Shown piece after piece: positions 963-36,654 of a stretch of DNA of 60,150 nucleotides (position 1 is its first letter; each line of letters starts with the position of its first letter). Position numbers and translations under genes: made by a program. Source of the stretch: Saprospiraceae bacterium (GTDB lineage Bacteria > Bacteroidota > Bacteroidia > Chitinophagales > Saprospiraceae); the NCBI GenBank assembly GCA_026986005.1, contig JALSPK010000021.1, forward strand, positions 1-60,150, written 5' to 3'. Under the pieces are notes generated by a model. It was not told where the DNA came from and made no database searches. It saw only the letters and a list, made by a program, of their open reading frames with translations.

Positions 963-991
963 AGAGTGATTAATATACGGTTAATCACTCT
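963..991 (-). terminator. Terminator of the btuB-btuG operon
   Basis: Perfect 11-bp stem AGAGTGATTAA / TTAATCACTCT with a 7-base loop. On the minus strand it is followed by a T-rich run. The btuG-like stop codon (985-987) lies inside the stem, so terminator and coding end overlap. Confidence 0.75.
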
Positions 992-3991: not shown

Positions 3992-4017
3992 TTTTTTGTG
4001 TTTAACCCGAACAATAA

Positions 4018-4195
4018 ACTTGGCAGGTCTTCTGGCTTGTTCTTGTCTTTGAAGCCTTCCCATTCGTATAGAATAGTGACTATTGATTCAAAAACTAAAC
4101 AGAACTTACAGCTACGGGTATAGCTCCGGATTTGCACCGGATTCCCTTTTCATCTCAATCAAGAATAATGCTCTTAATCAAGACACCGAGTATTT
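4018..4195 (-). ncRNA. Cobalamin riboswitch
   Basis: Read on the minus strand, the leader contains GGGAATCCGGTGCAAATCC, then GGAGC, CCCGTAGCTGTAAG and finally AAGCCAGAAGACCTGCC. These are the conserved core and the B12-box region of cobalamin riboswitches, in the expected order. It ends about 25 bases before the btuB ATG, so ligand binding probably controls translation of btuB or transcription into it. A perfect TATCTTTG -7 element lies just upstream. The 5' boundary is approximate. Confidence 0.93.
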
Positions 4196-4201
4196 CATAT
4201 A

Positions 4202-4209
4202 CAAAGATA
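4202..4209 (-). promoter_or_regulatory. -7 promoter element of the riboswitch-btuB operon
   Basis: TATCTTTG on the minus strand is a perfect match to the Bacteroidota -7 consensus TANNTTTG. It would start transcription about seven bases downstream, close to the 5' end of the riboswitch. No convincing -33 TTTG is seen. Confidence 0.6.
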
Positions 4210-4352: not shown

Positions 4353-7022
4353 TTAAAATAACATTCTCAGTCCTATATCCGGAAAAAATGGTAAACCTAT
4401 CCTGTCTGTCTTTACTATAAATGGAGTATCAACATCATTTAGGAATTTTAGTGTATAATTTCGTTGCAAATAATTTTTCCGGTTCATAATGTTGATGGCA
4501 GAAACCGTTATTTTACCTCTTAACCATTTAAAAGTAAATTTCCACGAAAGCCCCAAATCTATTCTGTAATACGGAATCAGGTTTTTGTTATTGAAACTTT
4601 GGTATTCTATCCAGTATCCCGGATTATTGGGATCAGACAAATCCATTCCAATACTATCTACAGCCGTGTATGGCAAACCTGAACCAAATTTTATTGCCGT
4701 GGATAGTGTGAAGTTTTTAAAAATCACTCCTAGTAAAATATCCAACTGATGTTTTTGGTTGTAGGAAGGAGAAACGGGATATTCCGGGTACTCAAATTCG
4801 TATTTTACCCTGTTAAAGGTATAACCAAGAAATGTATAAAAGTATTTGTTTTTTTTCTGAATACTCAACTCCAATCCCGAAGATGACATATTTCCGGAAT
4901 AATTTGGAAAGTCTTTTGTATCGAATCTTAATGTTCTTGACGTAATGCCTTTATAATATCTATCGTAAAATGTCAAATCAATATTCCATGATAACATTTT
5001 CAGAGCGAATCCCATTGAATATTGTGTGTTTTTTACGGCAGAATACAAATCTCTACTGCCTTTGCTACGAGATAATAGCCAGAGATTATCTTCTGCATTT
5101 AGTTTATTAAATTCTACAATCTGGTTAATAGTTTGGTGATATATACCACCTGCAAGTTTAAATGAAAAAATCTTTATGGGATATACTTTCACTATAAATC
5201 GCGGTTCAAAGTATATATTGTTTGTGAGATTGTAGTGATTGAGTCTTAATCCAAAGTTAAAATCAATTCTATCCAAATCCAATCTATAATCGGTAAATAA
5301 CGTGTTTGTTATCCCATTGATATCGTCATCAAAACTAAAATCTGTTTGATTTTCATCTTTTTTAAACACTTTGGCTACCTCGGTAATACTATTGAACTGA
5401 TACCCGAATGAAAAATATTGATTATCTTTTTTTAAGTGATTTGAAATATAAAATGAATAGTCATTTAAAAAGTTAGCGTTTTTGTACAAGGTTTTAGCGG
5501 AATCAACATGAAAATTGTCTTTGTATGAAAATTTATTTTTATACTTTGAAATAGAAAGTCCTAAATCAGAATCAAATACGTCAGACCAAATATGATTCCA
5601 GTTCAAATTCACTCCATTATTTTGTATATTTAATGTGCTTTCCTCATAGTACGAATCCTTTTGATCATAAATATAATCTAATTTGTCCTTAATCATAATG
5701 CTGCTAAACGACACATTATTTTGTGAATCCGGTTGCCAAAGAATCTTGCTATTCCAATCGTAAAAAGATGTTACGGGTGTATTATCGGTAATTGAATCTA
5801 TTCCGGAATTTTTAATATATTCATTGTCTTCTGAAATAATGGAATTTTGAAATATCTGATTGAAATTTCGTTTATAGGAAGGTGAATTTAAGTACTCTGT
5901 AAACGAATGCCTATAATTGATAAAAACAGCCATTTTGTTTTTAAGAAATGGCATCTCAAAATTTATATCTCCTGACAAAAGGCTACCTTCAAGAACTACA
6001 GACTTATATTCCGGGATACTATTTTTTCCTTCAATATCGATAACTCCGGATACTCTGCTCCCATACGAAGACGAATATCCTTCCTTGGAAATCTGTACTT
6101 TTTCAATTGCATTAGGATTAATTGAAGATATTTTTCCAAAAAAATGGCCATTGTGATACATAGGAATATTGTCATAAAGTATAAGTGTTTGTCCGGTATT
6201 TCCACCTCTTATATGTATTTGGGAGGAAGATTCATCGGTTGAATTTATACCCGGAAGTAATTGTACGATTTGAAAAACATCCTTTTGTACCAAGCCGGCA
6301 ATTTGTTGGATATCTTCCATCTCAAAAGTAGTGGAACTTACGTTTTCCGTAGATAGAAAAGTATTGTTTTCAACGTCATAAAACAGTCTGTCTGTAATAA
6401 TAATTTCGTTCATATTTTGAACATCAAGATTGAGAATTATCTTTCTGCATGGCGTTGCTTTCAAATCTTGAATATCAATATACTTTGTTTTGTATCCGAG
6501 ATAACTGAATATAACTGTGTCGTGTTTTACCAAAGGTGCATTGAGAGAGAAATTTCCGTTTAAATCCGATGTTGTACCTATTTTTGTACCTTTAAGAACT
6601 ATATTGGTATAAGGAAGAGCAGATGAGTTTTTGTCTAATATCAAACCGCAAATAGTTGTCTTAAAAGCGTCATAACCATTATCTGTCCTTCTTTTTAAGA
6701 TATAGTTCTTTGGAGAGATCTGTTCAAATTCCAATCGTGTACCTCTCAATAATTTTATCAGCATACTTTCAATTGATAGATTTGAAAAATCCCCTGAAAT
6801 ACTATTACCTTTTATCAAATCATAATCATAAGAAAATGAGATTTTGTTTTTTTCTCCCCACTCTTTCAGGACGATTTCCAATGGGGTATTATCATAAATA
6901 CATTTAGAATCGGACTGAGCAAATAGTCCTTGACAATTAAATGTTATTATAATTGTAAAAACAATGCCTAGTAAAATTGTATTTTTAACAGAAAATTTCA
7001 TCCGGTATTGAAGATTATTCAT
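4353..7022 (-). CDS. TonB-dependent receptor with STN signalling domain (FecA-like)
   Basis: An 889-residue outer-membrane receptor. After a signal peptide ending near 'GLFAQ' comes an STN domain (about 40-110, 'TPLEIVLKEWGEKNKISFSY'), which in FecA-type receptors signals to an anti-sigma factor. Next is a carboxypeptidase-regulatory-like domain (about 122-210, GTKIGTTSDLNGNFSL), then a plug (about 220-340, IHIRGGNTGQTLILYDNIP) and a barrel to the C-terminus ending in IGLRMLF. The FecR-like and ECF sigma genes directly upstream on the same strand make a complete surface-signalling set. There is no SusD partner. The substrate cannot be read from sequence; iron chelates are common for FecA-like receptors, but other substrates or processing of surface proteins are possible. 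ATG codons at 7022 and 7001 are both possible starts. Confidence 0.87.
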   Translation of the reverse strand: MNNLQYRMKFSVKNTILLGIVFTIIITFNCQGLFAQSDSKCIYDNTPLEIVLKEWGEKNKISFSYDYDLIKGNSISGDFSNLSIESMLIKLLRGTRLEFEQISPKNYILKRRTDNGYDAFKTTICGLILDKNSSALPYTNIVLKGTKIGTTSDLNGNFSLNAPLVKHDTVIFSYLGYKTKYIDIQDLKATPCRKIILNLDVQNMNEIIITDRLFYDVENNTFLSTENVSSTTFEMEDIQQIAGLVQKDVFQIVQLLPGINSTDESSSQIHIRGGNTGQTLILYDNIPMYHNGHFFGKISSINPNAIEKVQISKEGYSSSYGSRVSGVIDIEGKNSIPEYKSVVLEGSLLSGDINFEMPFLKNKMAVFINYRHSFTEYLNSPSYKRNFNQIFQNSIISEDNEYIKNSGIDSITDNTPVTSFYDWNSKILWQPDSQNNVSFSSIMIKDKLDYIYDQKDSYYEESTLNIQNNGVNLNWNHIWSDVFDSDLGLSISKYKNKFSYKDNFHVDSAKTLYKNANFLNDYSFYISNHLKKDNQYFSFGYQFNSITEVAKVFKKDENQTDFSFDDDINGITNTLFTDYRLDLDRIDFNFGLRLNHYNLTNNIYFEPRFIVKVYPIKIFSFKLAGGIYHQTINQIVEFNKLNAEDNLWLLSRSKGSRDLYSAVKNTQYSMGFALKMLSWNIDLTFYDRYYKGITSRTLRFDTKDFPNYSGNMSSSGLELSIQKKNKYFYTFLGYTFNRVKYEFEYPEYPVSPSYNQKHQLDILLGVIFKNFTLSTAIKFGSGLPYTAVDSIGMDLSDPNNPGYWIEYQSFNNKNLIPYYRIDLGLSWKFTFKWLRGKITVSAINIMNRKNYLQRNYTLKFLNDVDTPFIVKTDRIGLPFFPDIGLRMLF

Positions 7023-7145: not shown

Positions 7146-8054
7146 TTAGTATATCCTTATTGTCTTATTATCCGGCAGAAAGGTATAATTCAAATTCATT
7201 GCTCCGCATATTTTTTTTAAAGCATTTTCAATGTTATCATTTTTAAAATCGCCTGTAAACTTTCGTTGCAAATCTACATTATTAATTTGTAATTTTACAT
7301 CGAATTGGCGTTCAAATTCGTTAAATACATTTTTTAAACTTTCTTTGTAGAAAACGTAAACGCCACTTAACCATAACGGCTCATTTATCATTTCTTCAAT
7401 AGGGGAGCTATTCCCGTTTTTGATAATAAGGCCCTGTCCCCTTTCCAATATTTTATTTAATTTTATTTGTTCTGACTCAACCTCTACTTTCCCACGGTAA
7501 CAAACTACCGTTAATGTATTTTTTCTGGCGTAAACATTAAATTGTGTACCTAAAACTCTAATTATTCCCTTTTTAGTCTTTACCTCAAATAAAACACCTT
7601 TTGTTACTTTGAAAAATGCCTCACCTTCCAATTCCATCTTCCTTTCTTTATCCCAATTATCTTCAAAATATTTAAGTTTTGAACCTGAATTAAGTACTAC
7701 ATTGGATTTATTCGGCAGAATGATGTTTTTTCTTTCGCCATTTTGAGCAATAACTACTACTCCCTGATTATTCCACCACCAAAATGCTCCGAAAATCAAT
7801 AAAATAGAAGCAGCAATGCTTATCCAAACCGGGAAAACAGATTTTTGTTTTGGTTTATTCTTATTACGTTTATCTGACAACTTATTCCACAACTTTTCTA
7901 CATCCATAGATTCGAAGTCATAATCTTTTAATCTCGATAAAGATGCTTCAAGATCAGTCAAATCACCTTGTTTTTCCAATATTTTGCGCTCTTCAATGGA
8001 AATCGTTCCTTCAAGCCATTTTGCTAATAAAATATGTATGTCAGTTTCTGCCAT
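7146..8054 (-). CDS. FecR-family anti-sigma factor
   Basis: 302 residues. A cytoplasmic N-terminal part (ILLAKWLEGTISIEERK) that would hold the sigma factor is followed by one membrane helix at about 72-93 (VWISIAASILLIFGAFWWW). A periplasmic FecR domain (about 100-200, 'VLNSGSKLKY...GEAFFKV') and a DUF4974-type C-terminal domain (about 230-300) follow; the last is STN-like and probably contacts the receptor. It lies between the sigma gene (48 bp upstream) and the STN-receptor gene (123 bp downstream), the standard order for Bacteroidota trans-envelope signalling. Confidence 0.92.
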   Translation of the reverse strand: MAETDIHILLAKWLEGTISIEERKILEKQGDLTDLEASLSRLKDYDFESMDVEKLWNKLSDKRNKNKPKQKSVFPVWISIAASILLIFGAFWWWNNQGVVVIAQNGERKNIILPNKSNVVLNSGSKLKYFEDNWDKERKMELEGEAFFKVTKGVLFEVKTKKGIIRVLGTQFNVYARKNTLTVVCYRGKVEVESEQIKLNKILERGQGLIIKNGNSSPIEEMINEPLWLSGVYVFYKESLKNVFNEFERQFDVKLQINNVDLQRKFTGDFKNDNIENALKKICGAMNLNYTFLPDNKTIRIY

Positions 8055-8102
8055 TTTTTTTAATACGTACTAATTAATAATTACCCTACCGGTTGCAAAA
8101 AA

Positions 8103-8627
8103 TTATTTAATATACAAGGATATTTTCTTCCTGAGTATTTCCAAAGCTATACCCATTCTTTTTTCAACGGCTTTTTGACTCAACTCCAATCTTTCCGCAA
8201 TTTCTCTATAAGTCATGTTTTCAATTCTACTCATCAAGAAGACAATCCTACTGTTTTCAGGTAATATTTCAATTATATTTTCAATTATATTTTTAAATTC
8301 TTTTTCTTCCAATTTATGTAAAGGAGACTCATTGGTTATTTTATTTAGATTTTGCTTTTGTCTGTGAATAAGTACAATTTTTTGATGACGATAATGATCA
8401 GTAAGTTGGTTTTCAGCAGCTCTGTAAAGATATGATTTTACCGTTTCAAACCGTATCTCAGCACATTTTTTCCATAGCTTTAGAAAAACATCCTGCACTA
8501 TATCTTCTGCCATAGCCATATCTCCGGATTTTGATAAAATATAGTTTCTGATATTACGTGCATATTTGTAAAACAATGCTTTATACACTGTCTCAACGCA
8601 TATATCTATGATTTTTTTTACTGACAA
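8103..8627 (-). CDS. ECF RNA polymerase sigma factor (FecI/RpoE-like)
   Basis: 174 residues with sigma region 2 (about 37-72: AEDIVQDVFLKLWKK) and region 4 helix-turn-helix (about 136-165: MTYREIAERLELSQKAVEKR). It directs transcription of target genes when the FecR protein below releases it. The frame has no ATG upstream of region 2: a TAG stop precedes a TTG codon at 8627, with a GTG a few codons later. Initiation is therefore probably at TTG, or the true N-terminus is lost. It is transcribed divergently from the secreted-protein locus that begins at 8749. Confidence 0.88.
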   Translation of the reverse strand: MSVKKIIDICVETVYKALFYKYARNIRNYILSKSGDMAMAEDIVQDVFLKLWKKCAEIRFETVKSYLYRAAENQLTDHYRHQKIVLIHRQKQNLNKITNESPLHKLEEKEFKNIIENIIEILPENSRIVFLMSRIENMTYREIAERLELSQKAVEKRMGIALEILRKKISLYIK

Positions 8628-8748
8628 AAGCTATATTTTAATAATAAAATGCAAAATACAAAAAAATATTTTCTTTTCAAGTAGGGTACAATAATATCTA
8701 TCCGTATCAGAGGCAAATTAATTATTAAATAATGAAAAAAAATAAATA

Positions 8749-11133
8749 ATGAAAAAATTAGTGATTTTAATAGCGTTTTTTCTATTAGGAAATTCAATTT
8801 TCTCACAAACAAATACAGCTTGTCTGAAAATGGGGATGCAGATCTTTCCCCCCCAATATTACGGTACTTCATATCCCTTTGTTAATATTATGAAAAATGC
8901 AGATAAATGGCATACACGTAATGTAAGTTATGTTGAAAATGGAGAAAACTTGTGGGATACTGAATTATTGAATTATATACCATTGGATGAAAACGGCTAT
9001 CCTCTTGAATTGCCTGTCAATATCAATCACGCAAATGCTGAAACAGAACAGGGTGTATTTACATTATGGGCGGCAGCTACTTCTCTTCCGGAAGGTAATT
9101 ACGTGATTTTGTATGACGGAGAAGGCGAAATGGAGATTTCGGGTGGAGGAGTTACTTCGGTTATTTCACAGATACCCGGAAGAATAGAATTTAGCTTTTC
9201 TCCTACTGAAGATTATCTCGAATTATTTATAAAAGCATCTACTCTTGGAAACCATATTCGAAATATCAGGGTTCTTTTGCCAGGAACAGAAGATACATAT
9301 CAAACTCAACCCTGGTGTTCATCCTGGATAGATAAATTAGCCCCATTTAAGACAATTAGATTTATGGAATTTGGGCGTATTAATGGCTCTACTGAGAGCA
9401 AATGGAGTGATAGAACCTTGCCCGATTATTATACTTTTGGTTCAGACGAGAGCAATGGAGTTCCTTATGAACAGATGATTCAATTGTGCAATGAAACTCA
9501 ATCAAACGCCTGGATAAATATTCCCCATTTAGCAGATGAAAATTATATTATTGAGCTGGCAAATTTCTTCAAATCTCATCTTAATCCAAATCTTAAGATA
9601 TATATTGAGTATTCAAATGAAACCTGGAATTGGATGTTTGAGCAAACTTCTTATCTTGATAGTATAGGCAATCAGTCATTGCCGTGGCCTGAGAGAACAG
9701 TGTCTAAAATAGGATGGGCATTGGAGACATGGACAAATGCTTTTGGTGATAGCCCGGATAGAGTTACACGGGTTTTGGCGACACAGGGAGGGTGGTTTGA
9801 TATTGGCAATCGTCAGTTTGAACAGATGGAACTTGAAGGTACTGACCAATTTGTTGATGCGATATCCGTTGCTGCTTATTTACCGATTGAAGCGGATTTA
9901 CTTACAGGGAATTCTACCGTTTCCGATGTCTTTTCAAATTCTCATAACGCTTCTTTTGGCCCGGACAACAATTTTTTCAATCCATTAAAAGAGTATGCCT
10001 CTTTAGCAAAATCAAAGAATAAAAAAATATTGATTTACGAAGGGGGGCAGCATTTCACTCCTGATCCATTTGGAACCGAACAAGCTTACAATCAGGTATT
10101 GATAGATGCACAAACAGATGTTCAGATGTATGCTGCTTATGTGGAATTGTTTGATTCACTAAAGACCCTAAGCGAGGATGAAATATTATTTATACATCAC
10201 GTATTGGTTTCGCCCAAGAATGGACCGTATGGCTCTTGGGGTTCACTTGAAAATCAATTTTCACAGACAGCACCATATAAAGTAATAGCGCCAAAATACC
10301 AGGTTTTATTGGATTATTTGAATGATTGTGGAAGTGGAGTTGTAGATACGGATGGTGATGGAATTCCTGACGAGGAAGACCCCTGTCCTTTCGATCCGAC
10401 TAACGAATGTGACTCCATCGTTTATTGCAATTCAACTGGCTTAGAAGCGTGGTATGAATGGATAAATGAAGTGAAATTTAATGCATTTTCCAATATAAGT
10501 AGCAACAATTGGGGCTATGGTGATTACACAAATTCAGCAATTGAATTTAATAGAGGAGAACTAATACATTTTGAATTAACTCCGGGATTTAACGAAGATG
10601 CATATAAAGAAAATTGGAGAATTTGGATTGATTATAATATGGATGGTGATTTTGATGATGCAGAAGAATTAGTATATTCATCTCTGCATGCAAGTAACAG
10701 CACGGTAAGAGGATCTTTTAATATTTCCAGTTCGGCAATTAATGGAAATACCCGAATGAGAGTGTCAATGTCGTATGAAGAATTGCCCAATTCATGCGGA
10801 GAAATAGAATATGGTGAAGTAGAAGATTATACCGTAAATATCAATTCGACCTTCAATACAAGAACAAATAGAATTACAAATTCGACCAATAACAGTTCAT
10901 GGGAAATATACCCAAATCCTGCTTCTGGTTTTGTTAATATTAATGTTGAAACACAAGAGCCAAGAAAACTACATATTGTCGTGGTGGATGTATTGGGTAG
11001 AACAGTATTTGAAAGGAACATTAATAATCTTATAGAGAAAAAACACATTCAAATTGATATAAAAGAATTAAAAAGCGGGCAGTATTTTTTAAGTATTAAT
11101 GAAAACAGCAAACGATTTATAATTGCGCGTTAA
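8749..11133 (+). CDS. Secreted putative glycoside hydrolase with GEVED and T9SS domains
   Basis: 794 residues. A signal peptide ends at 'NSIFSQ'. Residues about 25-525 resemble TIM-barrel glycosidase-like proteins: 'IYIEYSNETWNWMF' holds a candidate acid/base Glu in an N-E-x-W-N setting, and 'KKILIYEGGQHF' holds a candidate nucleophile Glu. A thrombospondin type-3 calcium motif (DTDGDGIPDEEDPCPFD) then links to a GEVED domain (about 560-695, ending GEVEDYTV) and a T9SS sorting domain (about 720-794, WEIYPNPASG ... RFIIAR). It is thus exported by T9SS to the surface or medium. The catalytic assignment is inference from motif context; no CAZy family is claimed. It is the first gene of a run of secreted proteins. 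Confidence 0.7.
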   Translation: MKKLVILIAFFLLGNSIFSQTNTACLKMGMQIFPPQYYGTSYPFVNIMKNADKWHTRNVSYVENGENLWDTELLNYIPLDENGYPLELPVNINHANAETEQGVFTLWAAATSLPEGNYVILYDGEGEMEISGGGVTSVISQIPGRIEFSFSPTEDYLELFIKASTLGNHIRNIRVLLPGTEDTYQTQPWCSSWIDKLAPFKTIRFMEFGRINGSTESKWSDRTLPDYYTFGSDESNGVPYEQMIQLCNETQSNAWINIPHLADENYIIELANFFKSHLNPNLKIYIEYSNETWNWMFEQTSYLDSIGNQSLPWPERTVSKIGWALETWTNAFGDSPDRVTRVLATQGGWFDIGNRQFEQMELEGTDQFVDAISVAAYLPIEADLLTGNSTVSDVFSNSHNASFGPDNNFFNPLKEYASLAKSKNKKILIYEGGQHFTPDPFGTEQAYNQVLIDAQTDVQMYAAYVELFDSLKTLSEDEILFIHHVLVSPKNGPYGSWGSLENQFSQTAPYKVIAPKYQVLLDYLNDCGSGVVDTDGDGIPDEEDPCPFDPTNECDSIVYCNSTGLEAWYEWINEVKFNAFSNISSNNWGYGDYTNSAIEFNRGELIHFELTPGFNEDAYKENWRIWIDYNMDGDFDDAEELVYSSLHASNSTVRGSFNISSSAINGNTRMRVSMSYEELPNSCGEIEYGEVEDYTVNINSTFNTRTNRITNSTNNSSWEIYPNPASGFVNINVETQEPRKLHIVVVDVLGRTVFERNINNLIEKKHIQIDIKELKSGQYFLSINENSKRFIIAR

Positions 11134-11271
11134 GAAGACTTTTTTAAAATTATTAGGTATTAAGCAGGATTGTTTACATGAAAATATTTAATCATGCTAT
11201 TTTGGCTAATAAAAAACACAAATTTGCATATTAAAAGCAATAATATTATGTATAGGCTAAATCTTTATAAA

Positions 11272-14112
11272 ATGAAAAATGGAAAATATCGCTTAATTGT
11301 TAGTTTAATATTTCTTATTATTTGGAGTCAAGTATATGGGCAACTCTCGGATAAAACCATCTATCTTGAACCCCAAAATAGCCCCAAACTCCAACAACTC
11401 GCTAATGATTTAAAGTCATACTTGGAGAAAATTGACGGAGCCACCCACACTATATCCACTAACAGTTTTAGTGGCATCGGTATCGTCCTCGCCATTGCTG
11501 ATTCGAGCAATATCATTGCGGTAAGCGACAAAATCACCCTAGATGCGCTCAATTTTGAAGGTTATTTGCTTGACGCTAATGCTTCCCGTGTTATTATCTG
11601 TGGACGCACGGCACTAGCCGTCCAACAGGGAATGTATGATTTTTTGGAGCGTATCGGATGCCGCTTTCTTGCACCTTCATCCGACTGGACGGTCATTCCT
11701 GAAAATGAAATATGGAGCCTTTCAGTCAAGACGTTCAACGACCCCGACTTTACTTGGCGGGATATATGGTATTCCAATTACCAAGGCGAAGGCTATGCTC
11801 CTGATAATTCTTTGACGGAAATTGCCGAAGACCATCATCGCTTTTTTAATTCCACGAGACAGGGAGGTGTGGCTCCCATTCGGATTGACCATTCTTTTAC
11901 CGACTTGCATATCATTTATGCTGATAGTTTTGCGGTACATCCCGAGTGGTTTGGCATGAAAGAAGACGGTACTCGCTGGACACCGGCCGATATTCAATGG
12001 GGAGTAGCTTATTCCTATGAATACAGCGACACTACTCTCGCTAATTTTCTCCTAAAATTGCGTCTCGAACAATATGAACAACAAGTAGCCCTCGACCCGT
12101 TCAATGTCATGGTCTCCATGGAACCGCAGGATGGTTCAGGACAATCATATAGCCCTGAAAGTCTGGCATTGGGAAATAAAAGTGACCAGGTTTTATACCT
12201 TGCCAATTGGGTTGCCAAGCGTTTAAAAGCCATACATCCAGAGGCGATCGTTGCCATTAGTTTATACGCCAATCATTTAGCCCCACCTTTGAATGTGGTT
12301 GCCGAAGATAATATTTTTGCACAAATGGCACTGGCTTTCAATGAAAGTGGGATGAGTTATAATGATATCATTCAAGGCTGGCGAGATCATGGGTTACAAA
12401 ACATTTCCATTTACGAATATGCCGCTGAAATGCAATGGACAGCCGCCATGCCAGCAGATGGGAAGTTGACTTTTGATTATATCAGCAAAGCCATTCCCCA
12501 TTTTTATAATGATTGGGGCATTACGGGTATGTCGGTGGAGTCCAGTTCGTATTATGGTCGAATGGGGGCGCCTACCTACCTGATGCGAAAATTGTATTGG
12601 GATGCCAATGCCGACGCAGAGCAGATTTACAGCGAATATTTCAATGTGGCATTTGGGGCTGCTGCTCCACAGATGCGAGCATTATTCGATTTGTGGGAAA
12701 CAGATGAAGGAGCAGCTTTAACGGCGATAAACGTCGGGAGATGGCTGGATAAGATGAACGAGGCTTTCGTCGCCGCTCAAAGCGAACCCGCTCCGATCCA
12801 AAAGCGACTGGATGATATGGCCGCATATTTACACCTCACAGCTTTGTATTATGAGGCTACGATCAGCAATTGTGGAGGCGCTGGCGATACAACGGAGGTC
12901 AAAGAAAAAGTGGGAAATCTTTATAAATTCGCCTGGAGAATTCGAATGCGGGAGATGGTTTCCTTTTATCCTTTTTGGGATTATACGAGTGGCATTTTAG
13001 ATGAGGTGTTACCCGAAGGATGGTACACAGAAGAAGCCGCCACCGACCCTAGTTTTGAGGAAGCATGGGAGTGGAATATTGTCAATATGTTGCAGGGGAA
13101 TTGTATTTGGCAGGAAAACAGCGATGATTATTCTTCGGCAGAAATCAGGGCTTTGATTAATGCCGACCACCAGCAGTTTAATGATCATGAATCGCTTTTT
13201 GAATATACAGAAAGCTTATTTCCTTATAACGATAATGCACCGGTTCTTTGGGAGGGCGTAGATGATTTTTATGGCTGCACCGGTAAATCAGTCTGGCATA
13301 TAAAAATAGACGAACCGGGAGCCTTAAAAGTCAATTTTAAATCAACGGGCGTACCACTTCAAGGGGCTGTTTTGCAAAATGAAGCGGGAGATACTATTTT
13401 TTCCAATATCGCTTCAGGCTTTGACGAAGTAGCCATAGATAGTTTGGATATTCCCGTTCCAGCAGCGGGTATTTATCGTCTGTTATTGATAAGTTATCAA
13501 AATGACCCTTTCAATCCTGTCTTTAATGCACCTTATAAATTTGTGGTGGAAGCCTCTGAAAAACATCCTTTGGAGTCCACTTATTTTACGCCCTTATATT
13601 TTCTAGTACCCGAAGGAACGGACACTTTGAAAATAGCGTATAAAACCTTCCTTTCCATCAAAGCACCAAGCTGGGCGGAACAACAGGAATATTCAGAAGA
13701 TCAATGTGGCATATTAAAAATTCCCGTCAATGGTGATTTTGGCATTTGGTCATTTGAGCACGTTACGGCCTCGGATATTGCCTTGCTGAATGTGCCACCG
13801 TTTTTGAGCACCCATGTGGATAATTTATTGACGGTAAACAGATCGACTACGGCTACAACTACTGTTTATAATGATAAAATGGATTTTAAAGTTTATCCCA
13901 ATCCGACAAGTGGAACTGTCCATCTTGTTTTTCCGAAAAACAGGCAGGGTGTTGTTGTAATATCGGATATTACAGGCAAACCTATTTTTCGACAAAACAT
14001 AAATTCGGCGAAAGCAGATATTGATTTAAACACATTGCCTAATGGGATTTATTTGGTTAGTTGGCGAACAGCTAAGAACACCATTACTGAAAAATTTATT
14101 TTACAAAGATAA
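11272..14112 (+). CDS. Secreted DUF4838 protein with T9SS sorting domain, copy 1
   Basis: About 946 residues. I start at ATG 11272, giving MKNGKYRLIVSLIFLIIWSQ followed by VYGQ as signal peptide; further in-frame starts at 11194 and 11248 only add a poor leader. The N-terminal part resembles the alpha/beta domain found before glycosidase barrels ('LANDLKSYLEKIDG', 'VQQGMYDFLERIGCRFLAP'). The DUF4838 barrel-like region follows ('SMEPQDGSGQSYSP', 'ISLYANHLAPP', 'SVESSSYYGRMG'). A T9SS domain (FKVYPNPTSG) ends in KFILQR. DUF4838 proteins are probably carbohydrate-active, but the reaction is unknown to me. The central part is visibly richer in G+C than neighbouring genes, while the sorting domain is AT-rich. 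It is paralogous to the gene at 16560. Confidence 0.75.
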   Translation: MKNGKYRLIVSLIFLIIWSQVYGQLSDKTIYLEPQNSPKLQQLANDLKSYLEKIDGATHTISTNSFSGIGIVLAIADSSNIIAVSDKITLDALNFEGYLLDANASRVIICGRTALAVQQGMYDFLERIGCRFLAPSSDWTVIPENEIWSLSVKTFNDPDFTWRDIWYSNYQGEGYAPDNSLTEIAEDHHRFFNSTRQGGVAPIRIDHSFTDLHIIYADSFAVHPEWFGMKEDGTRWTPADIQWGVAYSYEYSDTTLANFLLKLRLEQYEQQVALDPFNVMVSMEPQDGSGQSYSPESLALGNKSDQVLYLANWVAKRLKAIHPEAIVAISLYANHLAPPLNVVAEDNIFAQMALAFNESGMSYNDIIQGWRDHGLQNISIYEYAAEMQWTAAMPADGKLTFDYISKAIPHFYNDWGITGMSVESSSYYGRMGAPTYLMRKLYWDANADAEQIYSEYFNVAFGAAAPQMRALFDLWETDEGAALTAINVGRWLDKMNEAFVAAQSEPAPIQKRLDDMAAYLHLTALYYEATISNCGGAGDTTEVKEKVGNLYKFAWRIRMREMVSFYPFWDYTSGILDEVLPEGWYTEEAATDPSFEEAWEWNIVNMLQGNCIWQENSDDYSSAEIRALINADHQQFNDHESLFEYTESLFPYNDNAPVLWEGVDDFYGCTGKSVWHIKIDEPGALKVNFKSTGVPLQGAVLQNEAGDTIFSNIASGFDEVAIDSLDIPVPAAGIYRLLLISYQNDPFNPVFNAPYKFVVEASEKHPLESTYFTPLYFLVPEGTDTLKIAYKTFLSIKAPSWAEQQEYSEDQCGILKIPVNGDFGIWSFEHVTASDIALLNVPPFLSTHVDNLLTVNRSTTATTTVYNDKMDFKVYPNPTSGTVHLVFPKNRQGVVVISDITGKPIFRQNINSAKADIDLNTLPNGIYLVSWRTAKNTITEKFILQR

Positions 14113-14207
14113 AAACATCCGTTCACCCAAACAGGAAATACCCGTGTACTAGGATAAGGATAGATAGATAAAATGTCTTTCTTCATTTTTAAACACTTGT
14201 TGGGATT

Positions 14208-14249
14208 TGTTAAAAATATTGAATATTAATAACTTTATGGACAGACACT
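14208..14249 (+). repeat. Right end of the dispersed AGTGTCTGTC element
   Basis: AATATTAATAACTTTATGG followed by ACAGACACT and flank ATTTAG matches the right end of the complete copy at 49998-50082, with one change inside the terminal repeat. No left end is found upstream, so it is a solo end. It lies 25 bp before the beta-helix gene. Confidence 0.6.
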
Positions 14250-14274
14250 ATTTAGTCTTTTTAAATTATAAAAT

Positions 14275-15987
14275 ATGAGAACAGTCATTTTATTTGCTTT
14301 TATATTTATTACAATTCAGCTGTCTGCCCAAAATACTTGGTATGTCCGACCGGCATTCTCCGGACAAACATACGGTTTAGAAGACGGCACCTCCTATAAT
14401 GATGCTTGGAATGGACTGGAGACGCTCAATGAAAAATTTCAGGATGGAACCATTGGAGCTACCGATCAAATTTATATTTGCGGCAGGCATGTTTTTCATG
14501 ATACAACTTTCAATAATCCTATTGCTCTTCAGGGGAAAATTGGAATTAAATCGGGACAATCACCTGCTGCCAGGCTAGTTGTCAGGGGTGATTATCCAGG
14601 AGATGAGGGAGTGATTTGGGGACATGAAAGAATGGATTTTGAGCAATGGGTGGATAGGGGGAATAATGTTTGGAGCATTTATTTACATGCCTATTACCGC
14701 TGGAATTGGTATTTTCAGGATATTGAATCTACTGAGCCAGATAATCCTATTATTTTGAATGCCGTAAATAGTATGACAGAATTAATAAATACACCAGGCA
14801 GTACATATAGTCCAAGTTATGCTTATGATTCGCTTTACGTTCATTTGACGGATGGCGGAAATCCGACCCATAGAATTTACTCCCCTTCCTTTGGTTATAC
14901 TTTTGATTTTGATAATTACATCAATACTTTTTCGCCTTTGCATAACATTGTGTTTAAAAATCTACAAATGTATGGAATGGGAGTGACTTCTAATCTGCCC
15001 TATACCCATATAAAATGGGAGGGATGTATATGGGCATGGAGTCCTGGTAGGGCGGTTAGCTTTTGGAAGGGACAGGATAATAATGAGATTGTCAATTGTG
15101 ACATTGGATGGTGTTCGGATGGAGTCTATGGTATAGACAATACCAATGATGGAGGCGCCAAGCATATTCTGATAAAAGGAAATCATTTTCACGATTTAGG
15201 AGATCGCCCTGAGCACCAAAATTCTGATGAACACGCTGTTGGAATGCAAGGAGGCACGGATTGGATTATTGAAAATAATTATATAGAAAGGTGCGGAAGT
15301 GGTCCACTCATTTATGCTTACACCAATCAACGGCTCACCAATACAATTATCCGATATAATTTCATTAAAGACTGTGATCCCGATGGAAGCGCTACCGGAT
15401 ATGGTATTGCGACTCAGTGCAATAACAACTCTTTTTCTGATAAATCCGGCAATCAAGTTTATTATAATATAGTGGTCAATTGTAAGGCAGGAATACGCTT
15501 GCAGTTTGAGGATATGCAGGATTGTTATAATAACACGATTTACAACTGTGAAAACAGTTTTGTATCGGGTCGTAATTATGATCGAAAAGGGGCAAGAGTT
15601 GATTTTAAAAATAATATTTCTGTCAATCCTGCCAATAAGCACATCTTATGGTACAGTGGCGCGGATACCATCTCATTTTTATCGGATTACAATTTATTTA
15701 ATCCTGATGGCACAAAATTCTATTGGGTTTACGTTCCTGACTTTATTAATGAACGAACTTTTGCCCAATGGAAGGTATTAGTTATGGACAGCTGCACTTT
15801 TGATCCAAATAGTAGTATAGGATCGCCCTTATTCGAAAATGGAACAGGCACGTTTTCCGAACCAGAAGATTTTAGGTTAACTGCTAATTCTCCAGCCATT
15901 AATGTTGGAATAAATGTGGGTTTAAGTGCCGATTATGCAGGCAATGCTATTGTTGGGTCACCTGATATTGGTGCTTATGAGTATTAG
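14275..15987 (+). CDS. Secreted parallel beta-helix protein, cut short by in-frame TAG
   Basis: 570 residues up to the TAG. The signal peptide ends at 'IQLSAQ'. The body has right-handed parallel beta-helix features: repeated short strands with Asn and Ile ladders ('IVFKNLQMYGMG', 'ILIKGNHFHDLGDR', 'IIENNYIERCGSGP', 'TIIRYNFIKDCDP', 'YYNIVVNCKAGI'), ending 'SPDIGAYEY', the usual end of such domains. This fold is typical of pectate-lyase-like and alginate-lyase-like enzymes and of some carbohydrate-binding proteins; the substrate is unknown. After the TAG the same frame goes straight on into a linker and T9SS sorting domain (see 16018). As written, the product would lack its export signal for the outer membrane. 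Confidence 0.8.
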   Translation: MRTVILFAFIFITIQLSAQNTWYVRPAFSGQTYGLEDGTSYNDAWNGLETLNEKFQDGTIGATDQIYICGRHVFHDTTFNNPIALQGKIGIKSGQSPAARLVVRGDYPGDEGVIWGHERMDFEQWVDRGNNVWSIYLHAYYRWNWYFQDIESTEPDNPIILNAVNSMTELINTPGSTYSPSYAYDSLYVHLTDGGNPTHRIYSPSFGYTFDFDNYINTFSPLHNIVFKNLQMYGMGVTSNLPYTHIKWEGCIWAWSPGRAVSFWKGQDNNEIVNCDIGWCSDGVYGIDNTNDGGAKHILIKGNHFHDLGDRPEHQNSDEHAVGMQGGTDWIIENNYIERCGSGPLIYAYTNQRLTNTIIRYNFIKDCDPDGSATGYGIATQCNNNSFSDKSGNQVYYNIVVNCKAGIRLQFEDMQDCYNNTIYNCENSFVSGRNYDRKGARVDFKNNISVNPANKHILWYSGADTISFLSDYNLFNPDGTKFYWVYVPDFINERTFAQWKVLVMDSCTFDPNSSIGSPLFENGTGTFSEPEDFRLTANSPAINVGINVGLSADYAGNAIVGSPDIGAYEY

Positions 15988-16017
15988 AATCCTCTGGCGG
16001 TCGAGTACCTCTCTCCT

Positions 16018-16521
16018 TTGCAGGCATTCCAGAAGGAGGACAGAGTGATTTTAAAATGGGCGACTGCTACAGAAGTAAATAATGATTATTTCATCGTACA
16101 GTGTTTAAGCGATGAGAACTTGTGGGTAAATATTGGTAAAGTGGGAAGTAAAGGAAATGCCTCGGGTATCTATAGATTGGTTGATACAAACCCGGGAATC
16201 GGAACACGGTATTACCGCCTCAAACAATACGACTATGATGACTCCTTTTCTTATTCCAACATAGCCTCAGTCTATATTGAATCAATTGATATGCAAATTT
16301 CTCCTAATCCCTCAATTGGAATAGTGCATATTGTTTTGCCGAAAAACACAACCGGGGAAGTAATGCTATATAATGCCAATGGCAAACAAGTATTGCAAAA
16401 AACAAGAATTAGGAAACAAGAGACAAATATCGACTTAAGTCATCTACCAAATGGAGTTTACCTCATTACTTTTATATCAAATGGGGAAATTATGAATAAA
16501 AAAGTAGTATTAGAAAGGTAA
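16018..16521 (+). CDS. Detached C-terminal part of the beta-helix protein: linker and T9SS domain
   Basis: 167 residues in the same frame as the gene ending at 15987, separated from it only by the TAG at 15985-15987. The codons just after the stop read NPLAVEYLSPLQAFQ, matching the 'LPVEL..F.A' entry to the Fn3-like linker that precedes many T9SS domains. 'LKWATATEVNNDYFIVQ' and 'RYYRLKQYDYDDSFSYS' complete that linker, and 'MQISPNPSIG ... KKVVLER' is the sorting domain. On its own it has no signal peptide. It is best read as the tail of one gene broken by a nonsense change, a sequencing error, or a stop that is read through. Confidence 0.75.
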   Translation: MQAFQKEDRVILKWATATEVNNDYFIVQCLSDENLWVNIGKVGSKGNASGIYRLVDTNPGIGTRYYRLKQYDYDDSFSYSNIASVYIESIDMQISPNPSIGIVHIVLPKNTTGEVMLYNANGKQVLQKTRIRKQETNIDLSHLPNGVYLITFISNGEIMNKKVVLER

Positions 16522-16559
16522 GAAAAACAATTATTCTTAATCATAAAAACAATGATGAA

Positions 16560-19469
16560 ATGAAAAAATTAAAAATATTTATCACGCTCTTTTTACTGAC
16601 TGTTTTTACAATAGAAAGCCATGCTCAACTCGCGAATAAAACCATCTACATCCAGCCTGCCAACGATACCAATATGGTCAATTTAGCGGAAGAGTTAGCC
16701 GATTATTTGCAACAAATTGAAGGTAATACCTACACGATTGCGACAAGCGGATATGATGATACAGGTATATTATTGGCTATTAGTGAAAATACTCAAGTGT
16801 TATCGGATAGCGATAAGGAGACCCTCGCCGGCATGAACAGCGAAGCGTTTTTAAGTGATGTCAATACCAGTCGAGTGCTTATTATTGGCAATGAACGAAT
16901 AGGCGTACAGCACGGCATTTTTGATTTTGTCAAACAACTCGGCTGCAAATTTCTGACCCCATCACCAGCATGGACGATTATTCCCAATAATCCAAATTGG
17001 GCATTTACGCATAAAAAATTCGATGAACCGGATTTTATTTCCCGCGATATATGGTATGCGAATGGAGATGGGGATGGATTTGAAGAAGTTTTGTCAAAAA
17101 ATGCACGAGATAGGGAACATTTTTTTAGAGCCACACAGCAAGGTAGTATTGCCAATACTCAAGGGATGGATTATCCAAGTACTTTTGCCGTAGGACATAC
17201 TTATCAGGATGATATGGCAGCAGATCCGGATGAATTTCAGGCGCATCCTGAATATTTTGCTACAAAAAAAGATGGTACTTTATATACTTGGCAGGATTAT
17301 TTGGACAATGGCGCTGGAGGTGATGGTATTTCGTTGGAATACAGTAATCTGAATTTAGCTCAATTGATGTTGGAAAACCGGATTGACTGGCTCAACCAAT
17401 ATAAAGTGGAAAACCCGAAAGAGTTTCTCATTTCCATTGATCCACAGGACGGTTCTCAAATTTCCTATCATCCGGATGCCTTGGCTTTGGGCAATGGTAC
17501 CGATCAGGCACTCCATATTGCCAATTATGTAGCAGCTGGTGTAGCAAACGCAATTCCCGGGGCATGGTCGGCCATTTATATGTATCCTTCTCATTTGCTC
17601 CCGCCCGAAAACACGACCATTTCCCCCAATATTTATGCACAAATTGCCTTGGCTTTCAATAGCTCAAATTTGAGTTTTAATGAAATTGTCCAAGGGTGGA
17701 ATAATGCCGGATTGCAACATTTCGGTGTTCGGGATTACCTTGGCGAATATCAATGGGACATGGGACTGCCCCTTGGACAACCGACCGTTACCCTTGAATA
17801 CATCAAAAAACATTTCCCTTTCATTTATAACGAATGGAATGCCCGTTCTTATAGCGCGGAATCTCAGGCCAACTGGATGCGTGGCGGTCCGTCCTATTAC
17901 GTTGCCCGCAAATTGTTGTGGGACATCCATGCCAATGCCGATAGCCTCTATAATGACTGGATAGAATCCGCTTTTGGTAATGCTGCCGAACCAATGAAGG
18001 AACTATATGATAATTGGGAACACGACCCTTCCCAATTAAGAAGTGAAAATACCTATATCAAAATCAACCGCTGGCTACAACTTATCCAACAGGCATTTAA
18101 TCAGGTCGATGAAGGAACGCCGGAATACAAGCGGGTAGAAGACATGTACAGTTATGTGCATTACAGCATCCTTTTTCACGAGTTTTATGAGGCAGAAAGA
18201 GCCGCGACACCTAATAGTGATACTTTGATGGTTCAAAATGCCGCGTTACCCTTATTGAAATACGGCTATCGCATTCGTCGTCGTCATGTCATCCAATTTT
18301 GGGCATTTCAGCTGCGTTTGCTTTTCGAGCATGGATTAATAGAAAATTTTGATCGATGGGATGGTTGGAATTTTTTTAAAATGGATACACATCCCACCCT
18401 TTGGATGGTAAATGGGGCTGATTTTACTACCGATGAAATGCAACAAATGCTCGCCCAGGATCTAATTAAATATCCCGAAGAAAGTTTATTAAAAAGTTAT
18501 TCCAAAAAACTCATACCACTTTATCCTGATAAGACACCTTCGTTAATCGAACCACTAATTGAGCCATTCGACCAAACGAAGTCCGCAGGTCCTTTTGGTA
18601 CAACCAATTGGTATTTCCTGGCAGAAACCAATGAAAACCTAAGCATCGAAATGCGACAGTCTAATGTATATAGCCCCTCTTGGGAATCTGAAATAGGTGA
18701 AGGGTATGTCAAAAATACAGAAACAGCTACCTACGTATTTGATAAAAGATTAGAGATTAGCTATTTTAATGGAGAATACCAGATCAATCACATTAACAAT
18801 CTTCAGCTCACAAAAGGACTGTATGAAATGGCGTTTGATAATGGAGATTATAATACCTACTTCCCCATTTTCGATACGCCCCATCGTTTTGTTTTGGAAG
18901 CCTCCGAAGAGCATCCATTGAGTTTCAACGACTGGACGCCCATGTATTTTTACGTTCCTGCCGATGTAGATACCATTTTATTGCATTATGACTGGGCTTA
19001 TATCAATATCAAAGCCCCTTCGCAAACAGACGGCATCCAACACGGCGTAGATGAATTGGGTTTCTTGAAAATTCCAGTAACAAATGACATGGATAGAGAC
19101 ACGGTATGGGAAATTCAAGATCTATTTTGGGTAGATGCTTTTTATTTTCTTAATATACCTCCATATCTAAGTAATGCACCTGAGAATATGCTGGTGCCGG
19201 AACCTCTTTCAACCGCTGTTACAGAAGTAAAAGAAACTTTTGATTTTCAAATGTTCCCCAATCCAACAAGCGGAGAGGTTAATATTATTTTACCAATGCA
19301 ATTCTCCGGTGAAATACTGGTGAAGGACATTGCTGGAAGGCAGCTACTTTCTAAATATATTACAGGCAAACAAACTTCACTTAGCTTGAATCATTTGGTC
19401 AATGGTATTTATTTGATAGAATTAAAAAACGGAAGTCATGTGACAGGTAAAAAACTACTGTTGTTTTAG
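16560..19469 (+). CDS. Secreted DUF4838 protein with T9SS sorting domain, copy 2
   Basis: 969 residues with signal peptide MKKLKIFITLFLLTVFTIES then HAQ. It has the same layout as the protein at 11272: 'IYIQPANDTNMVNLAEELAD', 'VQHGIFDFVKQLGCKFLTP', 'DEPDFISRDIWYA', 'SIDPQDGSQISYHPDALALG', 'IYMYPSHLLPPE', then a beta-rich part and the T9SS domain FQMFPNPTSG ... KKLLLF. The two copies are clearly paralogous over their full length but diverged, so this is an old tandem duplication or a joint acquisition. Like copy 1, its core is more G+C-rich than the surroundings. A secreted carbohydrate-active role is inferred from the family and its neighbours. Confidence 0.75.
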   Translation: MKKLKIFITLFLLTVFTIESHAQLANKTIYIQPANDTNMVNLAEELADYLQQIEGNTYTIATSGYDDTGILLAISENTQVLSDSDKETLAGMNSEAFLSDVNTSRVLIIGNERIGVQHGIFDFVKQLGCKFLTPSPAWTIIPNNPNWAFTHKKFDEPDFISRDIWYANGDGDGFEEVLSKNARDREHFFRATQQGSIANTQGMDYPSTFAVGHTYQDDMAADPDEFQAHPEYFATKKDGTLYTWQDYLDNGAGGDGISLEYSNLNLAQLMLENRIDWLNQYKVENPKEFLISIDPQDGSQISYHPDALALGNGTDQALHIANYVAAGVANAIPGAWSAIYMYPSHLLPPENTTISPNIYAQIALAFNSSNLSFNEIVQGWNNAGLQHFGVRDYLGEYQWDMGLPLGQPTVTLEYIKKHFPFIYNEWNARSYSAESQANWMRGGPSYYVARKLLWDIHANADSLYNDWIESAFGNAAEPMKELYDNWEHDPSQLRSENTYIKINRWLQLIQQAFNQVDEGTPEYKRVEDMYSYVHYSILFHEFYEAERAATPNSDTLMVQNAALPLLKYGYRIRRRHVIQFWAFQLRLLFEHGLIENFDRWDGWNFFKMDTHPTLWMVNGADFTTDEMQQMLAQDLIKYPEESLLKSYSKKLIPLYPDKTPSLIEPLIEPFDQTKSAGPFGTTNWYFLAETNENLSIEMRQSNVYSPSWESEIGEGYVKNTETATYVFDKRLEISYFNGEYQINHINNLQLTKGLYEMAFDNGDYNTYFPIFDTPHRFVLEASEEHPLSFNDWTPMYFYVPADVDTILLHYDWAYINIKAPSQTDGIQHGVDELGFLKIPVTNDMDRDTVWEIQDLFWVDAFYFLNIPPYLSNAPENMLVPEPLSTAVTEVKETFDFQMFPNPTSGEVNIILPMQFSGEILVKDIAGRQLLSKYITGKQTSLSLNHLVNGIYLIELKNGSHVTGKKLLLF

Positions 19470-19711: not shown

Positions 19712-22700
19712 CTAATTCCCGAGCACAATCAATTTTTTAAATAGCAGCTTATTATTTGATTTTATTCTAAAGAAATAAGTTGCAGGTTTTAGATTGCTAA
19801 CTTCAACATTAATATGATGAAACCCTGATGGCAGATTATCATCAATTATATTTTCCTGAATTATTTTTCCATTCAAATCAAAAAGATCAATTTTAACCTT
19901 TGAATCAGCAGCTAAACTAAGATTTAATGAAGTTTGAACGTTAGCAGGATTTGGGTAAACATCAATTAGATGATTTCCGGTCTGTCCTCCAATAAATACG
20001 GCGACCGTTTTACTGTTTATTGTTTTTCCATCATAATCAACTTCAATAATTCTATAGTAGTATATTCCCTCTACAAATTCTCCGGTATCATATGTTTTAT
20101 AAGAGTTTGATGATTTACCTATTGCATTAACTTCATTTATATCTGAGAAATTATTTGAGCTGTTATACGATTTTTGTACTATGTATTTTTGTACATTTAC
20201 TTCATTTGCAGTTGTCCAATATACTGCAACTTTATCCTTTTCCCATTTAGCCCCTACGGAAAGATAATTGATTGGAAGCGTCCCTGTTGCTAATCCGGCA
20301 TCTTGATGCTCCTTGTTTTCTTTTGGCTGTAACGTAAATAAATCAGTTGTTCCATAACCATAATCTCCGGTTACATCACTATCAAAATCATCATTACCTT
20401 GATTGTTTATTGTAAAAGAATATGAAGAGTAGTTATCAGGAGTATTGAATTTGAGATAATAATCTTCTGCCTGCAAATAATCTAAACTATATTCTCCATT
20501 TTCATCGGTAATAGTAGTACTATACAATTCACCATAAGCATTATATATTTCCACTTCTGTATTGGGCAAACCTGATTCTTCAGCATCTCTTATTCCATTA
20601 AAGTTGTCATCAATCCATACCAAACTATTAGTTATTGTCGACATATCATAATAACCTGCATCAATTGTATTATTTCCTGTAGTTCCGGATTTAAGAACAA
20701 AGGTATTAGTAGTTCCTTTACCATGATAATTTGTTATATCACTATCTATGGTAGGGTCATTTCCAATATGTGGTTGCGCAGGGACAATACCTTGTTGAGG
20801 TGTGACAAATTCTAAGTAATAAGTTCCGGGATTAGTACAAAATGAATAATACCCATCGCCACATATACTATTTGAATTAATTCCTGTATATTTTATATCC
20901 CACAAGACCCAACTGCTGTTAAAATATCTGTAAAGCTTAACTTGTAAACCATTAATTCCATTTTCATCAGGGTCATATATGTTGTTCTCATGAAAATCTA
21001 ACCATACCAAATCACCAACAGTAACGCAGTGATAAAAACCCGCATCTAAATTGGTGATAGTATCTCTTTTTTCTACTGAGAAATAATCAGTAGTCATATA
21101 TCCGTTCGTTCCATCAACATCACTATCAATATCATCATTTGGACTGATGTTACTATCAGTTGCATCCGTATAATTTGTAGGTAAATCAAACTTGAGGTAA
21201 TACTCTCCAGGTTCAATTTCATCAAATTGATATTTTCCTTGAAAATCGGTAGTAGTTGATTTCACAATAGTCCTATTGATATTATATAAATACACTTTTG
21301 CCCCGTTAATTCCCGGTTCGTTATTGTCTTGCAATCCATCCCCGTCAATATCATGCCATACATAATCTCCAATGACAGCATAAGGTTCTTCAAGTACAGA
21401 TATATATACAGTAGCGATGCTACATGCCGTTGGATTTCCTTCATCACATACCTCATAGACATATTGGTCATTTCCGAAAAAGTCTTGCACAGGAGTATAT
21501 GTATATGAACCATCTTGATTGAGAGTCAATGAGCCGTGAAGAGGAGCTACAATCGGGATTGAATTTACCATTGTATTATCGCCCTCAGGATCAAAATCAT
21601 TATCTGATACATTGCCTGTTCCTGATTCATTTTGCATCATAATTAGAGCATCATCATTTGCAAAAGTCGAATTGTTTCCTTTGTTATCAATAACTTCTAT
21701 AATAGCTAAGGTTGTATCGCATAATACCGGATTACCATCATCACACAATTGGTAATAAAAAGTATCTAATCCGACAAAGTCAGTATTTGGCATATATTGG
21801 AAAGTACCATTAGAATTTAGTGATAAGCTACCATTTTTTTGTGATATAACAGGAATAGCATTAACTGTAAGATTATCAAAATCAGGATCACTATCGTTTA
21901 CCAATACATTACCAGACGTTGGAGTATTTATCAATGTTTGACTAAAATCCGGAACTCCTACAGGCGGATTATTATTTTTATTTTCAAAGTCAAATACTTC
22001 AATGTACACATCTGCTATATCACAAACGCTAATAGGTGCATCATCACAAACTCTATATCTGAACACATCTACACCGACAAAACCGCTATTGGGAGTATAT
22101 GTATACGAACCGTCCGAGTTAAGTGTCAACAGCCCATTTGAAGGATTGATTAGAGCCGTAGTCTCTACTATTTGATTATCTCCCTGCGGATCTGTATCAT
22201 TTGACAATACATTACCTGAAACAGGCATGTTTTTCTGAGTGATATTCACATCGTTTTTAGCAAATGTCTCATTGCAAACAGCATTGCATTCATTGCTTAT
22301 TTGTGCAGTAGCATCATTATCAGCTTGTGCCCCGAAAGTATAAGGTTCAGCGTATTTTGCCCAAAAATCATATTCATATACCCCTGGAGATGTCTCTGTT
22401 AAGACAAGATTGCCGGCTAATATATTTTCACTATCGTCATAAATATTTGAGGAAGTAGTAAAATCTACTGTCACGACTAAGCCTTCTGAACCTCTTACAA
22501 TAACATGCTCGTGAAAATAATATGTGTTTGTACCCCTATAATTTAATTGGTCATCACAATTGCACAAATCAACAAGTTCAATACCCAATAACGGATCTTC
22601 CGTTGGGTCATCTGTAGTGTTCCCATCAAGGTCATCCCCATCGTCACTAATATCACTTACCCATATATTTCTATTGTCTCTCCCAGTTGCTGTAGCACTA

Positions 22701-36582: not shown

Positions 36583-36654
36583 ATCCAAATAAAATCATAT
36601 CACTTGTAAGCAATACGTGAAGATATAAAAAAAGTTACAATTAGATAAATATTT

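Follow-up and report, generated by a model that had tools for sequence, protein, structure and literature searches.

A proposed FecI/FecR/receptor-type switch for a divergent operon of T9SS-tailed, putatively glycan-cutting enzymes in a Saprospiraceae bacterium

Results and Discussion

A surface-signalling switch of the FecI/FecR/receptor type appears to control a divergent operon of T9SS-tailed, putatively glycan-cutting enzymes on contig C21 of a 3.8 Mb Saprospiraceae draft genome. We assign this reading a probability of roughly 0.6, with the enzymes acting outside the cell and most likely on glycoproteins. Positions given below refer to the window, that is, the whole stretch of 60,150 nucleotides that was analysed, and genes of the enzyme half are named after their first position.

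Layout of the Locus and Its Sensor Half

The minus-strand half consists of a FecI-like ECF sigma factor with a TTG start (8103-8627; TIGR02985, 135.6 bits, cut-off 126.4), a FecR anti-sigma factor (7146-8054; PF04773 at 63.6 bits and PF16344 at 46.2 bits, both above cut-off) and a TonB-dependent receptor (4353-7022) with Pfam/NCBIfam matches to CarbopepD_reg_2, Plug and, weakly, STN. The same order is found in FecI/FecR/FecA-type signalling and is kept in two relatives, G041 and G623. A first-pass annotation of this DNA had placed an ECF sigma/FecR/STN-receptor set back to back with the secreted proteins. The sigma factor, FecR and the TonB receptor are borne out, whereas the STN domain scores 22.7 bits (E 8.5e-5), below its cut-off of 28.4, and no STN is among the matches of the G623 receptor at E values up to 1.

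By model score the receptor is not SusC. With the NCBIfam SusC model, which was applied to ten window proteins, it reaches 77.7 bits, far below the cut-off of 368. Pfam scans of the non-overlapping window ORFs 120 aa or longer, at E values up to 0.01 or 1e-6, found no SusD, and each of the seven SusD matches in the genome lies on another contig. The earlier description of the locus as lacking SusC/SusD therefore stands for the ORFs scanned, and the adjacent SusC/SusD pair that defines a PUL in the SusC/SusD sense is absent. The Pfam scan of ORFs likewise revealed neither a sugar transporter gene nor a gene for an intracellular enzyme at the locus.

Several neighbouring features deserve a brief description. 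A cobalamin riboswitch (4005-4205, minus strand, 110.7 bits) precedes a BtuB-like receptor (2072-4063) and a DUF5074 protein (985-2085). Because of this riboswitch, the region 985-4063 was rejected as part of the locus, and the two genes probably form a separate unit of ordinary B12 uptake. On the other side, a 2121-residue surface protein with SdrD_B, Big_9 and cadherin-like domains and a T9SS tail (19712-26077, minus strand) is convergent with the locus. The window also harbors a second ECF-type sigma gene (36097-36588, minus strand); the 376-residue ORF directly behind it (34970-36100) has no Pfam match at 1e-6 and is perhaps its anti-sigma factor.

One Two-Box Site Ahead of the Enzyme Operon and of fecR

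The connection between the two halves rests mainly on a promoter-like site. An alignment of the 121-base gap between the sigma gene and gene 8749 with the corresponding upstream sequences from G041, G623 and G077 brought out a single strongly kept block, GTAGGGTA-N13-CCGTAT, with all specified bases identical in 4/4 sequences. These four are all the genomes with a close 8749 orthologue (at least 70% in the catalytic part) among the 396 searched. In each of them the site is exact and lies 41-50 nt ahead of the start codon; in the window it occupies 8681-8707 on the plus strand, at a distance of 41 nt from the 8749 ATG.

A second copy with one mismatch is located between the sigma gene and fecR, on the strand of fecR (8063-8089, minus strand, 8 nt before the fecR ATG). 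The corresponding sites of G041 and G623 carry two mismatches each, so that all three junctions read contain a copy. Only 7-9 nt separate the end of these fecR sites from the ATG, so that a transcript starting there would have hardly any leader. A further copy with one mismatch stands ahead of the DUF4838 gene of G773, where it is contained in the first part of a long ORF on the other strand. Over the eight sites (four before 8749, three before fecR and that of G773), TAGGGTA-N14-CGTA is invariant. Dinucleotide shuffles did as well as the fecR-region site in 2 of 3000 cases for the window and in 0 of 3000 for both G041 and G623, and the G773 site also gave 0 of 3000. The four 8749 regions gave 0 of 3000 as well, but the pattern was derived from those very regions.

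No copy was found before 11194, the beta-helix gene, 16560 or the receptor gene, nor on the strand of the sigma gene. In the window, the sites could yield one transcript for the whole plus-strand set and one for fecR plus receptor. The solitary DUF4838 gene of G142 has no site upstream, the closest match there being equalled by 1744 of 3000 shuffles. Allowing up to one mismatch, the genome of this bacterium contains two sites, both in the locus, against none for the control, and for this reason the idea of a general genome promoter was dropped.

The evidence for the site lies in its position and not in counts, which do not beat their controls. At up to three mismatches the window contains two matches where 1.96 are expected, and at least two appear in 59 of 100 shuffles; over eight genomes, up to one mismatch gives eight sites for the pattern and nine for the pattern read backwards. 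A search for exact sites in the 396 family genomes returned 15 for the pattern versus 6 for the backwards control. They are spread over 14 genomes, which include the four locus genomes, while the other ten are without the locus. These ten genomes hold 11 exact sites, and no part of the locus was recognised beside any of them (by eye, from ORF beginnings). A search of the open-access literature for the letters of the first box gave nothing relevant among the matches listed.

Since the same two-box site precedes both 8749 and fecR, control of both halves probably lies with the sigma factor, with its reading of the sites deduced from their placement. The link between the enzymes and the sigma/FecR/receptor set, proposed earlier from adjacency, is strengthened accordingly.

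Conservation and Possible Exchange of the Enzyme Half

A lack of conserved synteny had been named beforehand as a possible refutation of the proposed unit. Instead, the complete divergent arrangement, sigma-FecR-receptor against 8749-DUF4838-beta-helix, is kept in G623 of the same genus and in G041 of another genus. Identities of the window proteins to their same-place counterparts in G623 are 59% for the receptor, 46% for FecR, 62% for the sigma factor, 61% for the 8749 protein, 73% for DUF4838 and 66% for the beta-helix protein; the corresponding values for G041 are 40, 42, 60, 61, 73 and 63%. G041 also encodes a SusC-like receptor (L061:1434-4625, minus strand) about 3.8 kb past the beta-helix gene, in the same orientation and behind two genes for unrelated enzymes, FTCD and HI0933-like; by eye a SusD-like lipoprotein ORF adjoins it. 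This neighbour is a point against our reading.

Other relatives carry parts of the locus. In G077 (same genus), one contig holds 8749 and part of the DUF4838 gene and a second holds the remaining DUF4838 part, a C25 peptidase gene and the beta-helix gene; the sensor half is absent from the stretches read. The C25 (gingipain-type) peptidase (L089:8453-11581, minus strand), with propeptide, PKD, GEVED and T9SS tail, lies within the enzyme operon in this one genome only. G142 has the DUF4838 gene (86%) alone from the locus in the first 20,000 of 23,509 contig bases. In G773, of a third genus, the DUF4838 gene sits at a contig end, and no sensor gene occurs in the 14.6 kb read of the 20.6 kb contig. 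Gene order within the enzyme half differs slightly: the 16560-type gene directly follows 8749 in G041, G623 and G077, whereas in the window the paralogue 11194 takes this place and 16560 comes last.

Between G041 and G623, the enzymes are 87, 88 and 83% identical, as opposed to 69% for the sigma factor, 46% for FecR and 41% for the receptor. In the DUF4838 tree, window 16560 groups with G142 (100/100) and G041 with G623 (100/99), across genus lines. These unequal identities, along with a tree that crosses genera, suggest that the enzyme half may have been exchanged with its promoter kept; unequal rates of change are the alternative.

The same divergence fits a different explanation, in which the sensor set controls some other uptake, such as that of a siderophore or vitamin, adjacency to the enzymes is historical and the site is an old shared promoter. 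A receptor that falls short of the SusC model and a B12 uptake unit next door would also agree with it. On the other hand, a purely historical arrangement accounts poorly for a two-box site before the enzyme operon in 4/4 genomes, and for the copy before the G773 DUF4838 gene, where no sensor gene is seen in 14.6 of 20.6 kb. We consider this explanation quite improbable and retain control of the enzymes by the adjoining switch.

The 8749 Protein as a Putative Glycosidase

The first gene of the enzyme half (8749-11133, plus strand) encodes a secreted protein with a GEVED domain, a T9SS type A tail and, at approximately residues 187-530, a putative glycosidase of clan GH-A-like fold, as judged from the ORF, its domain matches and a structural model. 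Residues 1-550 have no Pfam/NCBIfam match apart from a sub-threshold thrombospondin-repeat at 533-550, and in three scanned relatives little beyond the tail was matched.

The AlphaFold model, built from six sequences, has a mean pLDDT of 55. Within residues 111-430, 21 of the 32 ten-residue blocks average at least 70; residues 171-240 stay at 52-62, and residues 291-309, at the first of the glutamates discussed below, are under 50. With this model, Foldseek gave TM-scores by query length of 0.08-0.29. We take 44 of its 50 rows listed to be clan GH-A enzymes, with clan labels assigned partly from general knowledge, and the others include adenosine deaminases and an isoamylase. A second structural comparison ranked a bacterial heparanase best (5bwi_B, Z 17.9, 268 residues, rmsd 3.2), followed by GH51 arabinofuranosidases at Z of about 17 (2c7f_D, Z 17.5, 282 residues); a beta-glucuronidase is also among the best matches. 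Taken together, the weak model points with modest confidence to a clan GH-A-like barrel.

The hallmark of clan GH-A is a pair of conserved glutamates on strands 4 and 7, the first of which occurs as Asn-Glu. In the window protein and 32 relatives, SNE is present in 33/33 and EGG in 32/33 sequences, the exception being L097. The relatives were chosen as the top-scoring matches, not at random, and comprise 5 of the 13 loci from the genome collection, 8 of 10 class-profile matches and 19 of 20 family matches. All 13 loci match the 8749 protein, 5 of them over the catalytic part, which were used, and 8 over GEVED or tail only. The first pass took only ORFs with [YF]SNE and dropped 3 of the 32, which were inspected separately. 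E291 and E431 are hence candidates for the acid/base and the nucleophile, with strands 4 and 7 as their presumed placement. Structures without any plausible active site had also been named beforehand as a refutation; for this protein, the modest model and the two glutamates speak against that outcome.

Relatives of the protein are common. The family profile matches 9 of 149 class genomes at 1e-30, this genome included, and at E <= 1e-40 there are matches in 122 of 396 family genomes; beyond the four orthologues, identity is 29-48% among the matches listed. A second member in the same genome (G000:C178:7752-9338, minus strand) shares 37% identity and has no two-box site nearby at up to one mismatch. 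With the modest confidence of the model, these matches suggest a widely distributed family of glycosidases; in the proteins scanned, no Pfam/NCBIfam model covers its main domain.

DUF4838 Proteins and the Likely Substrate

Two genes encode DUF4838 proteins with T9SS tails: a divergent paralogue (11194-14112, plus strand; PF16126 74.0 bits, tail 45.8 bits), which by eye probably starts at 11272, where a signal peptide begins, and the conserved orthologue of the locus (16560-19469, plus strand; PF16126 69.7 bits). Both exceed the PF16126 gathering score of 26.6. The G+C content of the enzyme genes is 0.36-0.42, with a window value of 0.327, and is highest in these two genes.

The two proteins are 36% identical to each other. 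The 16560 protein shares 73-86% identity with G041, G623 and G142, and at E <= 1e-60 it has matches in 6 of 398 family genomes and 3 of 112 genera. Compared with the complete 16560-type proteins, the 11194 protein is 36-38% identical; with the partial G773 gene, the value is 43% over 412 columns. It is placed as sister to the 16560 group with 100/100 support. Its nearest match elsewhere, among 396 order genomes, is at 37%, and a search for relatives in viral contigs gave two pattern matches, neither confirmed.

In the part of PMC9870897 considered here, a DUF4838 protein is listed as GH163. The GH163 enzyme of B. thetaiotaomicron is described, in the portion of PMC10154615 drawn on, as a cell-surface enzyme that cuts GlcNAc-beta-1,2-Man antennae of complex N-glycans, thereby removing LacNAc antennae. 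The window proteins share the family label with that enzyme; they differ in being distant and T9SS-tailed, with an activity that is presumed. Of 150 family genomes, 24 contain DUF4838 matches, and the 70-74 bits of the window proteins stand far from the 295-377 bits of the 17 best rows of the family search, so GH163 activity might not transfer to them. One aspartate is invariant in 15/15 aligned DUF4838 rows. The sequence search for solved relatives returned T9SS tails and weak or chance matches, and no solved structure covering the DUF4838 part. In the DUF4838 protein of L003, the match to 6q63 is confined to the C-terminal part, and the N-terminal part shows a weak match to NagJ chains. A fold model from the two window paralogues was discarded at a pLDDT of 33.8.

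The substrate can be approached from two sides. Heparanases, GH51 enzymes, beta-glucuronidases and many beta-helix proteins act on polysaccharides or their side chains. The enzymes might then process surface polysaccharide or matrix of the cell itself or of a neighbour, not food glycoproteins, with the switch sensing matrix fragments. The structural matches of the 8749 protein to a bacterial heparanase, GH51 arabinofuranosidases and a beta-glucuronidase lean this way, as does a locus devoid of both sugar transporter and intracellular enzyme genes. Yet the described GH163 acts on N-glycans (PMC10154615, in the portion cited), and a C25 peptidase joins the operon in G077; we regard matrix processing as rather unlikely. 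The GH163 label and the G077 peptidase also shift the substrate away from the polysaccharide first suggested for the locus and make glycoprotein the most economical guess. Degradation of glycoproteins or glycans is accordingly favoured over polysaccharide import.

Beta-Helix Gene and T9SS Tails

The locus had been described as four adjacent secreted proteins with T9SS domains. A type A C-terminal sorting domain is indeed present in three of the four enzyme-half proteins (8749, 11194 and 16560), but is absent from the beta-helix ORF (14275-15987, plus strand; choice_anch_Q), for which no Pfam match was found at 0.01, while its G041 orthologue matches PF13229. An in-frame TAG at 15985-15987 separates this beta-helix-type secreted protein from its severed tail, which continues in the same frame (16018-16521, plus strand; PF18962, 50.2 bits). 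The gene runs uninterrupted through the tail in G041, G623 and G077, to whose intact proteins it is 63-66% identical. As sequenced, the TAG leaves the protein without a T9SS tail, and it is probably not T9SS-exported in this strain; a sequencing or assembly error is a possible source of the stop. The T9SS machinery itself is represented in the genome by SprA (TIGR04189, 2023 bits).

The interrupted gene, together with a duplicated and diverged DUF4838 gene, might mark a decaying locus that has lost its function in this strain, all the more as G665 and G696 of the same genus have no DUF4838, beta-helix or 8749 match at the cut-offs used. This seems very improbable to us: the remaining locus genes are open, the tail past the stop still scores as a sorting domain, both two-box sites are present, and the TAG might be an error of sequencing or assembly. 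A working, switch-controlled operon is the reading we continue with.

Proposed Mechanism

In the proposed mechanism, the TonB receptor would bind a product released outside the cell, and its N-terminal domain would, by analogy with its family, signal via FecR; the receptor might in addition take up this product. The sigma factor freed by this step would read the GTAGGGTA-N13-CCGTAT sites observed before 8749 and fecR and raise both the enzymes and the sensor. The clan GH-A-like and DUF4838/GH163 proteins, which carry the observed tails, would exit via T9SS and cut the glycan.

A more detailed picture combines all of these elements. The locus may be an import-free, sensor-switched module for stripping glycoproteins. 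T9SS would export a Pfam-uncovered clan GH-A-type family and GH163-type enzymes (accompanied by a C25 protease in a relative), the released product would be sensed by a FecA-like receptor, and a single two-box promoter would let the sigma factor switch on both halves. The enzyme half may also pass from genus to genus with its promoter kept, plugging into the local sensor half. As a whole we hold this combination to be tentative, and not all of its parts are likely to be right at once. If the proposed control holds, surface-signalling switches in these bacteria govern digestion outside the cell directly, and not SusC/SusD uptake alone. The locus brings together, over a short distance, a testable sigma factor, a pair of candidate promoters and several enzymes for export.

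Comparison with Known Systems

Among the open-access papers listed for our searches, none showed exactly such a layout, and T9SS combined with an ECF sigma factor gave no match. The FecI/FecR/FecA ferric citrate system consists of a sigma factor, FecR and a TonB receptor with a signalling domain, and controls a transporter operon. The window locus shares the first three components, with a weakly scoring signalling domain, but its presumed controlled operon encodes secreted hydrolase-like proteins instead of a transporter.

In gut Bacteroides, PULs are regulated by ECF sigma/anti-sigma factors (PMC12596196, PMC3243724; both in part). The adjoining of ECF sigma/anti-sigma genes and glycan genes is common to these PULs and the window, whereas the window locus lacks SusC/SusD and has a two-box site common to both halves, a contrast drawn with the portions of these sources considered. 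The nearest published layout found is the sigG-fecR/susC-susD-glcA locus of Tannerella forsythia, where, according to the part of PMC13352502 used here, an ECF sigma factor and FecR regulate an adjoining gene for a glycan-cutting enzyme. In both loci an ECF sigma factor and FecR adjoin such an enzyme gene. The T. forsythia locus has SusC/SusD, in contrast to the non-SusC receptor, missing SusD, divergent operon and T9SS-tailed enzymes of the window (PMC13352502, same part). Since this nearest layout has SusC/SusD, we count the window locus as a variant of known signalling. What had been called a new layout is better described as a variant of surface signalling of the FecI/FecR/FecA type, one that has T9SS enzymes but no SusC/SusD.
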